Of a stretch of 36,265 bases of DNA, positions 7,678 through 35,041 are shown one piece after another (the stretch's first letter is position 1; each line of letters opens with the position of its first letter). The stretch comes from Bacteroidota bacterium. Lineage in GTDB: Bacteria > Bacteroidota > Bacteroidia > Bacteroidales > CG2-30-32-10. A model generated the notes under the pieces. It was not told where the DNA came from. It did no database searches and worked only from the letters and a program-made list of their open reading frames with translations. The position numbers were made by a program, and so were the translations under genes. Location: the NCBI GenBank assembly GCA_013377115.1, contig JACAAW010000019.1, positions 1-36,265 of the forward strand, written 5' to 3'.

Positions 7678-8604
7678 ATGACAAAAGTTTTAATTGCTAC
7701 AGATAAACCATTTGCAGCTGTTGCAGTTGCTGGTATTAGAAAAGTTGTTGAAGATGCCGGTTTCGAATTGGTTTTACTTGAGAAATACACCCAACAAGCA
7801 GATTTTGTTAATGCAGTTGCTGATGTTGATGCAGTAATTGTTAGAAGCGATTTAGCCACAAAAGAAGTTATTGATGCCGGAAAAAAACTGAAAATCATAG
7901 TTAGGGCAGGAGCTGGTTTTGATAATGTTGATTTACCTGCAGCTACAGAAAAAGGAGTTGTAGTTATGAATACTCCTGGACAAAATTCAAATGCCGTGGC
8001 TGAATTGGCTTTAGGAATGATGGTTTATATTGCCCGAAACAGTTATAATGGTTCTTCAGGAACAGAACTTAGAGGAAAAAAACTCGGAATTCACGCTTAT
8101 GGTGCAGTTGGTAGATATGTTGCTGAGATTGCAAAAGGGTTTGGAATGGAAATTTTAGCTTTTGATCCTTTTGTTTCAAAAGAAGCAATGGAAAAAGATG
8201 GTGTGAAATGGGTTGAATCTATTCAAGATCTTTACAGCTCATGTCAATACGTTTCCGTTCATATTCCAGCAAATGAAAAAACAAAAAAATCAATCAATTT
8301 TGAAGTGCTTTCTATGATGCCAAAAGGAGCTACATTGGTAAATACCGCTAGAAAAGAAGTGATTGACGAAGAAGCTTTGATGGAAATTTTCGAAGGACGT
8401 CCAGATTTTAAATACGTTTCTGATATAGAGCCAGGTTGTAAAGAAGAAATTATTACAAAATATCCTGGAAGATTCTTTTTTACACCAAAGAAAAGTGGTG
8501 CTCAAACTTCGGAAGCAAATATCAATGCAGGAATAGCCGCAGCAAAACAAATTGTTGGCTTTTTGAAAAACGGAGATAGGACATTTCAAGTAAACAAATT
8601 TTAG
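7678..8604 (+). CDS. serA: D-3-phosphoglycerate dehydrogenase, short form
   Basis: First step of serine synthesis: oxidation of 3-phosphoglycerate with NAD. At 308 residues it has only the substrate- and cofactor-binding domains, with no C-terminal ACT domain, so serine feedback through ACT is not expected. The conserved VRAGAGFDNVDL, NTPGQNSNAVAE and NTARKEVIDE (catalytic Arg) are present. Two departures stand out: the dinucleotide loop reads HAYGAVGRYV, with Ala at the first Gly, and the usual TPH catalytic His is Lys (TPKKSGAQTSEAN). I recall the same sequence in Bacteroides SerA, so this looks like a clade feature. The stop codon falls inside the left inverted repeat of the adjacent cassette. 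Confidence 0.92.
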   Translation: MTKVLIATDKPFAAVAVAGIRKVVEDAGFELVLLEKYTQQADFVNAVADVDAVIVRSDLATKEVIDAGKKLKIIVRAGAGFDNVDLPAATEKGVVVMNTPGQNSNAVAELALGMMVYIARNSYNGSSGTELRGKKLGIHAYGAVGRYVAEIAKGFGMEILAFDPFVSKEAMEKDGVKWVESIQDLYSSCQYVSVHIPANEKTKKSINFEVLSMMPKGATLVNTARKEVIDEEALMEIFEGRPDFKYVSDIEPGCKEEIITKYPGRFFFTPKKSGAQTSEANINAGIAAAKQIVGFLKNGDRTFQVNKF

Positions 8605-8626
8605 TGAGTTGGTAAATTAGTGATTT
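8601..8626 (+). repeat. Left inverted-repeat arm of the four-helix-bundle cassette
   Basis: This arm contains two copies of TTAGTGA (8601-8607 and 8617-8623) separated by GTTGGTAAA. It matches the reverse complement of 9033-9059 apart from three small differences. It overlaps the serA stop codon at 8602-8604. Confidence 0.8.
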
Positions 8627-8641
8627 AGGAAAAATATTGCA

Positions 8642-9028
8642 ATGGAAAATAATTATTTTGATTTTGAAAAATTGCAAGTTTACCAAAAGGCACTGGATTA
8701 TATTAGTTTTACTTATAAACTCACAAATAATTTTCCAACACATGAAACTTATGGCTTAACATCCCAATTTAGAAGAGCTTCAACATCGATTGCTTTAAAT
8801 ATGGCTGAGGGATATGGTGAAACAAAACCTTTATTTATAAGATACTCCAGAATATCAAAAGGTTCTTTAAGAGAATGTGTTGTTTGTACAACAATTGCTG
8901 CCAGACTTAATTATATTAATGAAAATGAACAAAAAGAATCAATGACAAGATTAACCGAATTATCAAAAATGCTAAGTGGACTGGTTAGTTTTGTAAAAAA
9001 GAAAATCGAAGAAGAGAAATTAACTTAA
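8642..9028 (+). CDS. Four-helix-bundle protein (S23 / 23S rRNA intervening-sequence protein family)
   Basis: A 128-residue all-helical protein. Family marks are FEKLQVYQKALDY near the start, LTSQFRRASTSIALNMAEGYGE in the middle and an SLRECVV helix. This family includes proteins encoded in intervening sequences of 23S rRNA genes and, more distantly, Avd of diversity-generating retroelements. Members form pentameric barrels with a basic surface thought to bind nucleic acid, but stand-alone copies have no settled function. The gene lies between serA and the DUF1015 gene and is bounded by near-matching inverted repeats 15 nt before its start and 4 nt after its stop. This suggests it was inserted as a unit. 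No reverse transcriptase or variable repeat is nearby. Confidence 0.9.
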   Translation: MENNYFDFEKLQVYQKALDYISFTYKLTNNFPTHETYGLTSQFRRASTSIALNMAEGYGETKPLFIRYSRISKGSLRECVVCTTIAARLNYINENEQKESMTRLTELSKMLSGLVSFVKKKIEEEKLT

Positions 9029-9032
9029 TAAC

Positions 9033-9059
9033 AAATTCACTAATTTACTCAATCACTAA
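9033..9059 (-). repeat. Right inverted-repeat arm of the four-helix-bundle cassette
   Basis: Reads AAATTCACTAATTTACTCAA then TCACTAA, the reverse complement of the arm at 8601-8626 with two single-base insertions and one further difference. It ends 15 nt before the DUF1015 start. Confidence 0.8.
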
Positions 9060-9074
9060 TTAACTACAAAGAAA

Positions 9075-10325
9075 ATGGCGATAATAAAAGCTTTTAAAGG
9101 ATTTCGACCCCCCAAAGAAATTTCCAAGGATTTAGCCTCTCGTCCTTATGATGTTTTAAATTCTGCCGAAGCCAGAGTTGAAGTAGAAGGCAATCAATAT
9201 TCATTATTACACATCATTAAACCAGAAATTGATTTGGCTACTGGTATTGATGAACATGATGAAAGTGTCTATAATAAAGCCAAAGAGAATTTTGAGAAAT
9301 TTAAAACCAACGGATGGCTGGCAAAAGACAATAGCGATAGTTTGTATATTTATGCCCAAACCATGAATGGCAGAATACAATATGGTCTTGTTGCCTGTGC
9401 TGCTGTTGAAGATTATTTGAATGGCATCATCAAAAAGCATGAATTAACTCGTCCAGATAAAGAAGAAGATCGAATGAAACATGTTCGCGTTACCAATGCC
9501 AATATGGAACCCGTTTTCTTTACCTATCCAGCGGTGGCAGAAATTGACGAAATTGTAAATAATATTGTTAAAAATCAGCCTGCTGAATATGACTTTACAT
9601 CAAGCGATGGATTTGGCCATCATTTTTGGTTGATTAATGATGCTTCAACAGTAAATAAATTGGTTGAATTATTTAAAACGAAAGTTCCTTTTACTTATGT
9701 TGCTGATGGACACCATCGTACTGCCGCTGCAGCCTTGGTTGGCGCTGAGAAAAAGAACAACAATCCAAATCATAATGGTACCGAGGAATACAATTTCTTT
9801 TTAGCAGTTCATTTCCCAGGCAATCAAATGAATATTATTGATTACAACCGTGTAGTAAAAGATTTGAATGGTTTATCTGCTTCCGAATTTTTAGAAACAT
9901 TGAAAAATGATTTCGAAATTGAAAATAAGGGAACAGAAACTTTTAAACCTACGAAACTTCATAACTTCGGAATGTATCTTGAAGGAAATTGGTATTCTTT
10001 AACAGCAAAACCAGGAAAATACAACGACAACGATCCAATTGGAGTTTTGGATGTAACCATCCTTTCTAATTCAATTTTGGATTCTGTTTTAGGAATTAAA
10101 AACCTTCGTACCGACAAACGTATTGATTTTGTTGGAGGTATCAGAGGTTTAAATGAATTAAAGCGCAGAGTAGATAGTGGAGAAATGAAAGTTGCTTTTG
10201 CTTTGTTCCCAGTTTCGATGCAGCAATTATTTGATATTGCTGATACCGGAAATATTATGCCTCCAAAAACTACTTGGTTCGAGCCAAAACTCAGAAGTGG
10301 TTTAATTGTGCATGAATTGGATTAA
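9075..10325 (+). CDS. DUF1015 family protein
   Basis: A 416-residue cytoplasmic protein of the DUF1015 family. It starts with the family opening IIKAFKGFRPPKE...RPYDVLN and contains the conserved YVADGHHRTAAAALVG motif (about residues 210-225). In Bacteroidota and other phyla it is commonly found next to serA and serC, which suggests a role linked to serine or phosphoserine metabolism. I recall reports of free-serine kinase activity for relatives, but that is not certain for this branch. Its link to serA is broken here by the four-helix-bundle cassette. A strong terminator follows. Confidence 0.88.
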   Translation: MAIIKAFKGFRPPKEISKDLASRPYDVLNSAEARVEVEGNQYSLLHIIKPEIDLATGIDEHDESVYNKAKENFEKFKTNGWLAKDNSDSLYIYAQTMNGRIQYGLVACAAVEDYLNGIIKKHELTRPDKEEDRMKHVRVTNANMEPVFFTYPAVAEIDEIVNNIVKNQPAEYDFTSSDGFGHHFWLINDASTVNKLVELFKTKVPFTYVADGHHRTAAAALVGAEKKNNNPNHNGTEEYNFFLAVHFPGNQMNIIDYNRVVKDLNGLSASEFLETLKNDFEIENKGTETFKPTKLHNFGMYLEGNWYSLTAKPGKYNDNDPIGVLDVTILSNSILDSVLGIKNLRTDKRIDFVGGIRGLNELKRRVDSGEMKVAFALFPVSMQQLFDIADTGNIMPPKTTWFEPKLRSGLIVHELD

Positions 10326-10374: not shown

Positions 10375-10470
10375 ATTTACTTGAATAGGCCTATCAAAAT
10401 TTATTTGAAAAATTTCGAAAAATCTCAAGTCTAAAGCAATTTCAATCCAAATTGAAATTACAAGATTCTA

Positions 10471-10502
10471 TTTGGCTAAAAATAAATAATTTACTATATT
10501 TG
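10471..10502 (+). promoter_or_regulatory. Promoter of the MntA-HepT pair
   Basis: TTTG (10471-10474), a 20-nt spacer and TATATTTG (10495-10502) match the consensus closely. The ATG at 10506 begins 4 nt after the -7 box, so the mRNA is probably leaderless or nearly so. Confidence 0.72.
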
Positions 10503-10505
10503 CCT

Positions 10506-10817
10506 ATGAATTTAATAGAAGCAAATAAAGATTCCTTAAATAAACTTTGTGATTCTCATAAAGTTAAAGAATTATATTTATTTGGTTCAATTCTTACCGA
10601 AAAATTCAATGATTCTAGTGATATTGATATGCTAATTCTTTTTTCTCAAGTTGATTTATTAGAATATTTTGATAATTACATGGATTTAAAAGAAAAGTTA
10701 GAACAATTATTTCTAAGACCTGTTGATTTAGTCGAGAATCAGTCAATCAGAAACCCAATATTCAGAAGAGTTATTGATCGTGAAAAACAATTAGTTTATG
10801 AACGAAAAAATTCTTAA
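10506..10817 (+). CDS. mntA: MntA-like nucleotidyltransferase antitoxin
   Basis: A minimal nucleotidyltransferase of about 103 residues with the motif GS-x10-DxD (FGS...SDIDMLI), which marks MntA antitoxins. MntA adds AMP units to a tyrosine of its partner HepT toxin and thereby blocks it. The track start (TTG 10452) lies upstream of the promoter; the ATG at 10506 is preferred and gives MNLIEANKDSLNKL. The gene overlaps the downstream HEPN gene by 20 bp, a typical arrangement for this type VII toxin-antitoxin pair. Confidence 0.85.
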   Translation: MNLIEANKDSLNKLCDSHKVKELYLFGSILTEKFNDSSDIDMLILFSQVDLLEYFDNYMDLKEKLEQLFLRPVDLVENQSIRNPIFRRVIDREKQLVYERKNS

Positions 10818-11133
10818 GTGCCTATATGATATTAAATTTTCATTAGAAGAAATTGATTCTTTTTTTGGTGGCAAGGAATTAATTTATGAGGAATATGCTG
10901 TAAATATTCTTTTGAAACTTGCTATTGAAAGAAATTTGGAAATAATTGGAGAAGCCATGAGTAGAATTCTTAAAGAAGACTCTGTTTTTCCTCTTGAGAA
11001 TGCGAAAAGAATTGTTGGTTTAAGAAATCAAATTATTCATGGTTACGATAATGTTTCTGATGAAAATATATGGGGGATTTTAATTAATCACCTTCCAAAA
11101 CTTAAAGAAGAAGTCAATAATCTTGTTAGGTAA
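10798..11133 (+). CDS. hepT: HepT-like HEPN domain toxin (RNase)
   Basis: A 111-residue all-helical HEPN (DUF86) protein. The catalytic motif R-x4-H-x-Y is intact as RNQIIHGYDNV (about residues 78-88). Arg and His form the RNase site, and the Tyr is the position AMPylated by MntA in studied systems. The start overlaps the mntA end by 20 bp in a different frame, so translation is probably coupled. With both active sites intact, this looks like a working toxin-antitoxin module. Confidence 0.88.
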   Translation: MNEKILKCLYDIKFSLEEIDSFFGGKELIYEEYAVNILLKLAIERNLEIIGEAMSRILKEDSVFPLENAKRIVGLRNQIIHGYDNVSDENIWGILINHLPKLKEEVNNLVR

Positions 11134-34771: not shown

Positions 34772-35041
34772 TTAATAAACTTCATCATGTGAACCAAAAT
34801 CAATAAAAATGGCTTTAGTTTGATTATCTGTAAAAAAGAAAATTACCCTAATATCGTATTCAATGCTAAAACTCCATAATTCCTTAAGTTTGCCTGATAG
34901 CTTATGAGTTCTAAGTTTGCTGTCAAACGGATTGGCTATAAAAATAGACACTTTAGTCCAGAACTTTTCTTCTAAGTCTTTATTTTCTTTAACTTTCTTC
35001 TCAAAAGTTTTTTTAAATGAACTGCTAAAACTTATTTCCAT
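34772..35041 (-). CDS. RelE/YafQ-like toxin
   Basis: An 89-residue toxin of the RelE/ParE superfamily. The start MEISFSSSFKKTFEKKVKEN gives the typical strand-helix opening. The core LRTHKLSGKLKELWSFSIEYDIRVIFFF, with the following IFIDFGSHDEVY, matches the RelE/YafQ C-terminal sheet, including the Arg (DIRV) and a late His (SHDEVY). Such toxins usually cut mRNA on the ribosome. It lies 3 bp after the antitoxin gene on the same strand, the normal order. Confidence 0.85.
   Translation of the reverse strand: MEISFSSSFKKTFEKKVKENKDLEEKFWTKVSIFIANPFDSKLRTHKLSGKLKELWSFSIEYDIRVIFFFTDNQTKAIFIDFGSHDEVY

Follow-up and report, generated by a model that had tools for sequence, protein, structure and literature searches.

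An S23 gene framed by inverted octamer arrays, probably one copy of a mobile unit

S23 proteins are four-helix bundles that assemble into pentamers. Their genes, annotated as 'four helix bundle protein', occur in very many genomes, and to our knowledge all that is known of their function is their presence in intervening sequences (IVS) of 23S rRNA. Reports of tandem heptamers in cyanobacteria, xanthomonads, Geobacter and other bacteria go back decades, and we know of no agreement on their origin. The 23S rRNA IVS of Coxiella burnetii carries an S23 ORF in sense orientation and ends in a 28-bp terminal stem of complementary repeats; RNase III cleaves the paired ends (PMC4990558). Just upstream of this ORF lie 2–3 tandem GACAGAT plus GACAGAA, the number varying by strain (PMC4990558). 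GGGAATC heptamers were reported in Xanthomonas, often as convergent pairs (70–75 pairs per genome), and GGGGATT heptamers in Nostoc (Rehm et al. 2015, PMC4692102). In the open-access literature searched, we found no general link between heptamer repeats and S23 genes. Here we describe an S23 gene that lies between protein genes and is enclosed by inverted arrays of short repeats.

The S23 locus between serA and DUF1015

The window is a stretch of 36,265 nt of bacterial DNA. Its gene at 8642–9028 (+ strand, 128 aa) is a stand-alone member of the S23/IVP family, exceeding the curated cut-offs of both profiles (PF05635: E = 5e-31, 107.5 bits, cut-off 33.8; TIGR02436: E = 2e-29, 101.7 bits, cut-off 24). 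The AlphaFold monomer model of the protein (pLDDT 93.9) shows a four-helix bundle of the kind seen in 2GSC and 2RLD (Foldseek, 2gsc: E = 7e-8, TM 0.84), and the conserved residues Q42, R45, S49, N53, E56 and E78 are kept. To the left lies a serA-type phosphoglycerate dehydrogenase gene (7678–8604, + strand; PF02826 and PF00389, with TIGR01327 below cut-off), to the right a DUF1015 gene (9075–10325, + strand; PF06245). The unit is thus inserted between serA and DUF1015 and not in 23S rRNA: between 7400 and 10500 there are no rRNA matches and no Rfam matches above threshold.

The gene is framed by an upstream arm (8601–8626, + strand) and an inverted downstream arm (9034–9059, − strand), which are 85% complementary when aligned ungapped and match at 24 positions when two 1-nt gaps are allowed. 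The first-pass annotation had described about 24 agreeing positions and two TTAGTGA copies per arm; both statements hold in the alignment and in a position search, which places TTAGTGA at 8601 and 8617 (+ strand) and at 9059 and 9043 (− strand). The arms are better read as short tandem arrays of octamers than of this heptamer, namely TTAGTGAG TTGGTAAA TTAGTGAT TT upstream and, on the − strand, TTAGTGAT TGAGTAAA TTAGTGAA TT downstream. Their distance to the S23 start is 15 nt, as had been given, and to the S23 stop 5 nt instead of the 4 nt given before. The arm alignment scores 35, a value not attained in 20,000 dinucleotide shuffles of the flanks (60 nt each; best 32) or at 2,368 positions of equal geometry elsewhere in the window (best 28). 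Together with the profile matches this confirms a stand-alone S23 gene framed by inverted arms between serA and DUF1015. The upstream arm starts within the end of serA: the 3′ end of the gene reads AACAAATTTTAG in the window and AACAAATAA or AATAAATAA in relatives, so that the TAG contributed by the arm (8602–8604) is the present serA stop codon.

The S23 gene is the sole ORF of at least 80 aa between the arms, and there is no transposase among the ORFs of the unit. Since a search of its own genome at up to three mismatches gave no second copy of the window arm, the unit has no repeat family there. The second S23 gene of this genome (G000:C1:56285-56590) also has an inverted-arm score of 35, built from a different unit. 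Three further loci of the window may be mentioned. An MntA-type nucleotidyltransferase gene followed by a HepT-like gene (10452–11133) is likely a type VII toxin–antitoxin pair, with Pfam matches above the cut-offs and both NCBIfam matches below them. Going by their translations, an 89-aa ORF (34772–35041, − strand) may encode a RelE/YafQ-type toxin and a 117-aa ORF (1105–1458) a GIY-YIG domain protein.

Arms and mobility of S23 genes in other genomes

Among the 60 genomes examined from the order, 44 carry S23 genes, with at most 20 in any one. We compared the 150 nt upstream of each gene with the reverse complement of the 150 nt downstream and counted arms at a score of at least 30, a threshold of our own choosing. 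By this measure 56% of 95 Bacteroidales S23 genes have arms, against 2.4% when the two flanks came from different S23 genes of the same genome and 1.4% when they came from different genomes. A second set, 85 S23 genes taken from named genomes in 27 phyla, gave 59%, compared with 1.2% when the flanks were mismatched, and armed genes were seen in 17 of the 27 phyla sampled; among the 444 other ORFs of these loci, 1.4% have inverted arms. Pooled, 56–59% of stand-alone S23 genes (n = 180) carry inverted 7- or 8-mer arrays, and about 40% have no arms at the score threshold. Many of the genomes sampled are metagenome assemblies, and they are related by descent and not independent. Within 200 bp of S23 genes the density of tandem arrays with 6–9 nt units is 23 times that found elsewhere; the period is mostly 7 or 8, and G exceeds C in the upstream arm in 49 of 53 cases. 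In its design the unit is an S23 gene with an array of 7- or 8-nt repeats on either side, the two arrays being inverted and the G-rich strand facing inwards. Phages yielded no S23 matches. Another shared operon position of S23 genes, in Dysgonomonas, Bacteroides and Capnocytophaga, is between sdhA/frdA and sdhB/frdB (L123, L124, L130, L154 and L174; these names, like some other neighbour gene names, were read from translations). On cyanobacterial plasmids S23 genes also stand inside CRISPR-cas operons (L275, L277 and L283; cas6|S23|cas4 and cas10|S23|cmr3).

The repeat unit varies from locus to locus, even inside one genome, and similar units go with S23 proteins that are related (AATTACG, GGCAGT, TTTAGGC, AGTGAA and others). 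Between genomes, protein identity correlates with arm similarity (Mantel r = 0.25, reached in 0 of 2000 permutations; r = 0.28 after loci inherited in place were taken out). The flanks of other S23 genes do hold arms, a point raised by the first-pass annotation, but the arm sequence is common only within a protein clade. With loci inherited in place set aside, 22 pairs from the same clade remain; the 1-kb flanks of 18 are without homology and three of the other four show only short or repeat-like flank matches, which means that gene and arms moved together. The correlation could alternatively arise from arms that ride along with the gene, with no recognition involved.

A Flavobacterium locus (L187), where the S23 gene is inherited in place in dozens of genomes and in many species, offers no empty site because the gene is present by descent, but allows changes of the unit to be followed. 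Its arms consist of units of two types, GGTTCAAA or GGTTCTAA, which differ mainly at one base per unit: of two sister groups, one has A at this octamer position in 171 of 173 unit copies and the other T in 136 of 141, and both arms behave alike. Upstream and downstream arms of the same gene agree only slightly better than pairs within the subgroup (4–6% of permutations reach the value), so the data demonstrate concerted change of the unit and not position-by-position compensation. Such a change in both arms is what would be expected if a single protein reads all units, although it is no proof of binding.

Movement of whole units can be seen on plasmids of Nostocales, where S23 genes lie between inverted cyanobacterial heptamers (GGGAACA in the arms of a Nostoc S23 gene). 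The whole S23 block is missing from related plasmids of 92–96% identity at the sites C|D, D|E and TraM|hyp, which lie in conserved operons, and one further empty/filled site was found at about 85% identity. Two of the empty sites have bases extra or missing at the right border; no target duplication was seen at the Nostoc S23 sites, some borders being ambiguous. At one locus (L288) a gene-less armed insert occupies the place where related plasmids hold an S23 unit, and at another (L294, 1245–1426) a gene-less element of 182 nt with the same heptamers interrupts an S23 gene exactly. On 43 Nostocales plasmids the 182-nt element is present at 98 places. In an alignment of five copies the ends are constant, TTGAAGAAGAATTC to GAATTCTGTT, with GATAA alongside and no target duplication. 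One copy sits between two rarA fragments. Reversed, the arrangement is TTATC, element, TTCAA, which resembles the target and right end of IS200/IS605 elements and which we take as no more than a lead. The empty sites, the gene-less derivatives and the exact insertion into an S23 gene establish the arms plus gene as mobile: for the class as a whole, arms with the gene, or without it, come and go as blocks. The earlier proposal that gene and arms form a small mobile unit with no transposase of its own is upheld by the generality of the arms and by their travelling with the gene to unrelated places, and further by the presence or absence of whole units and gene-less relatives on the Nostoc plasmids.

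A possible mechanism and alternative readings

On these observations the window gene and its arms are probably one copy of a mobile S23 unit with inverted arrays of 7- or 8-nt repeats. We also consider it likely that S23 recognises its own repeat units. The protein, a relative of Avd, would bind these units, either as DNA or within a folded single strand, and would thereby mark both ends of its unit. A host enzyme would then cut the strands in trans; the foremost candidate is a transposase of the Y1 type (IS200/IS605- or RAYT-like) that would work on single-stranded DNA, a tentative assignment for which we rate the chances as clearly below even. Across 60 genomes, and computed without phylogenetic correction, S23 number correlates with Y1 number (partial rank r = 0.57 controlling for genome size, and 0.51 when DDE and RT are controlled for as well), compared with 0.37 for DDE transposases as a control and 0.09 for reverse transcriptases (both partial, given genome size). 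A Y1 transposase is a better candidate than a reverse transcriptase, although support for the step itself is weak. Against the Y1 step, the window genome has five Y1 matches, none inside the unit, and its Y1 genes (L300, L302 and L303) are accompanied by REP-like palindromes such as GGGCTTTAGCCC, unlike the 7–8-mer arrays of the S23 arms; moreover, one genome (G052) holds four S23 genes and no Y1.

The arms could instead be an RNA device, in which pairing within the transcript closes the S23 message into a stem-loop, after the manner of 23S rRNA IVS, and sets its processing or translation in the host operon. The minimum-energy RNA fold of 8595–9066 is indeed closed by a stem of the two arms, the Coxiella IVS offers a precedent in its paired ends cut by RNase III (PMC4990558), and both neighbours run in the direction of the S23 gene in 125 cases, against 5 in which the gene is antisense to the two of them. 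This sense orientation in operons may reflect selection rather than mechanism. We regard the RNA device as unlikely because it leaves unexplained the tandem units, the movement of arms with the gene and the gene-less insertions bounded by arms. Beyond the arm stem, the fold of the whole cassette is no better than that of shuffles (z = −0.78), and on two plasmids (L274 and L276) the S23 gene runs antisense to the genes on either side, one of the two copies having clear arms.

It is improbable, too, that S23 alone is the recombinase and that its invariant polar residues form an active site. A scan for residue patterns was carried out on alignment A2, alignment A1 being too diverse, and Q, S, E and E proved nearly invariant across highly divergent arm-bearing S23 proteins; the Q is lost in most of the armless homologues at the junction. 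As a marker of arm-bearing genes the conserved residues were striking within the junction clade and were rejected outside it, where intact residues and arms show no association (Fisher p = 0.81). For this reason the residues are not used here as evidence of catalysis. The fold relatives have no known catalytic activity, and the residues may be structural.

Still less probable is movement through an RNA intermediate, with a reverse transcriptase acting in trans and S23 in a role like that of Avd in DGRs, which the first-pass annotation had entertained. The model matches Avd and the Avd chains of the DGR reverse transcriptase complex at TM 0.7–0.75, the protein gives a weak match to NF033474 (Avd; 24.8 bits, below the cut-off of 80), and the sense orientation of S23 genes in operons would suit such a route. 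The numbers given above lend the idea no support, RT gene number being unrelated to S23 number once genome size is accounted for; in addition, four genomes with 7–8 S23 genes have no RVT_1 gene, and in the window genome no RT adjoins the unit, the only RT match being on another contig.

At the window site itself S23 is old. Ten further genomes of the order also have an S23 gene between serA and DUF1015, which in nine of these belongs to the window clade, and this speaks against a recent cassette at this place. The window gene and these nine relatives form a junction clade of ten proteins (support 98/82) with conserved neighbours, so S23 must have occupied the site long ago. The nine relatives are without arms, encode longer proteins and have mostly lost the conserved glutamine; arms and conserved residues are kept in the clade only by the window copy. 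Either the latter is the descendant that has been preserved best, or a near relative took the place of the original copy at a later time. No empty site for it was found among the comparison genomes, which had no member of the same genus. The tenth copy (G028) falls outside the window clade, has arms of other sequence and is an independent insertion. Gene-less inserts with inverted repeat arms occupy the same junction in two genomes (G026 and G034), which suggests a tolerated insertion site. The comparison of junctions in relatives thus shows a site that is largely inherited, alongside independent and gene-less insertions. That the gene is merely an inherited operon member with arms that are a chance or local feature is very improbable: the single clade and its conserved neighbours agree with this, but no shuffle matched the window arms, arms are typical across the family, the G028 copy entered the junction independently, and G026 holds a gene-less armed insert at that place. 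In the mobile-unit reading that we prefer, the window copy would be an old serA–DUF1015 insertion that has kept its arms and conserved residues, while its homologues there would have lost the arms and most of them the glutamine.

Comparison with known repeats and elements

More broadly, S23 units may constitute a separate class of mobile elements across bacteria, in which the protein reads its own 7–8-nt repeat, the specificity drifts with the protein and a host enzyme mobilises single-stranded DNA; the heptamers of cyanobacteria and xanthomonads and the 23S rRNA IVS would then represent its termini, the gene-less descendants it has left and its insertions into rRNA. Taken as a whole, this proposal falls a little short of an even chance. 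Such a class would be widespread and is apparently unreported. It may give an origin to short repeats that have been seen in bacterial genomes for decades and, if true, would also explain the origin of rRNA intervening sequences. The link between S23 and repeats poses a direct question, whether an S23 protein binds its own repeat, and makes the family a large natural collection in which protein and target sequence are paired and which might allow a recognition code to be read.

The published GGGAATC repeats, the cyanobacterial heptamers and the heptamers of the Coxiella IVS fit the design of the S23 unit. In a gammaproteobacterium with GGGAATC arrays (G635) the single S23 gene, which is frameshifted, lies between such arrays. 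A gene-less convergent pair of the same genome has GGGAATCGGGAATCGTTCAAGC in common with the S23 unit, including the first S23 codons, which identifies the pair as an internal deletion derivative. The GGGAATC/GGGGATT repeats and the cyanobacterial STRRs are like S23 arms in being tandem G-rich heptamers, often in inverted pairs; the papers on them treat the repeats as G-quadruplex or regulatory sequences and name no S23 gene. The 23S rRNA IVS share with the window unit the complementary ends around an S23 ORF, but lie within 23S rRNA and are cut out of the RNA, whereas the window unit has a protein gene on either side; no tie between the heptamers and S23 genes elsewhere is made in the Coxiella paper (PMC4990558). 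Avd has the same four-helix-bundle fold as the window protein, at a greater distance than 2GSC and 2RLD, and differs in context, as RT, template and variable repeat are absent beside the window gene. In contrast to classical IS and MITEs, the window unit has no transposase of its own, and where those elements have common terminal repeats, the arms of S23 genes within one genome match in 2.4% of pairs and are common only within clades. REP/RAYT and IS200/IS605 palindromic elements resemble S23 units in being short and non-autonomous and, as far as the partly ambiguous Nostoc borders show, in lacking target duplications; a further likeness lies in the constant ends and adjoining GATAA of the cyanobacterial gene-less element, and S23 number follows that of Y1. 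The S23 units differ from both in that they encode S23 instead of Y1 and end in tandem 7–8-mers that vary from unit to unit.
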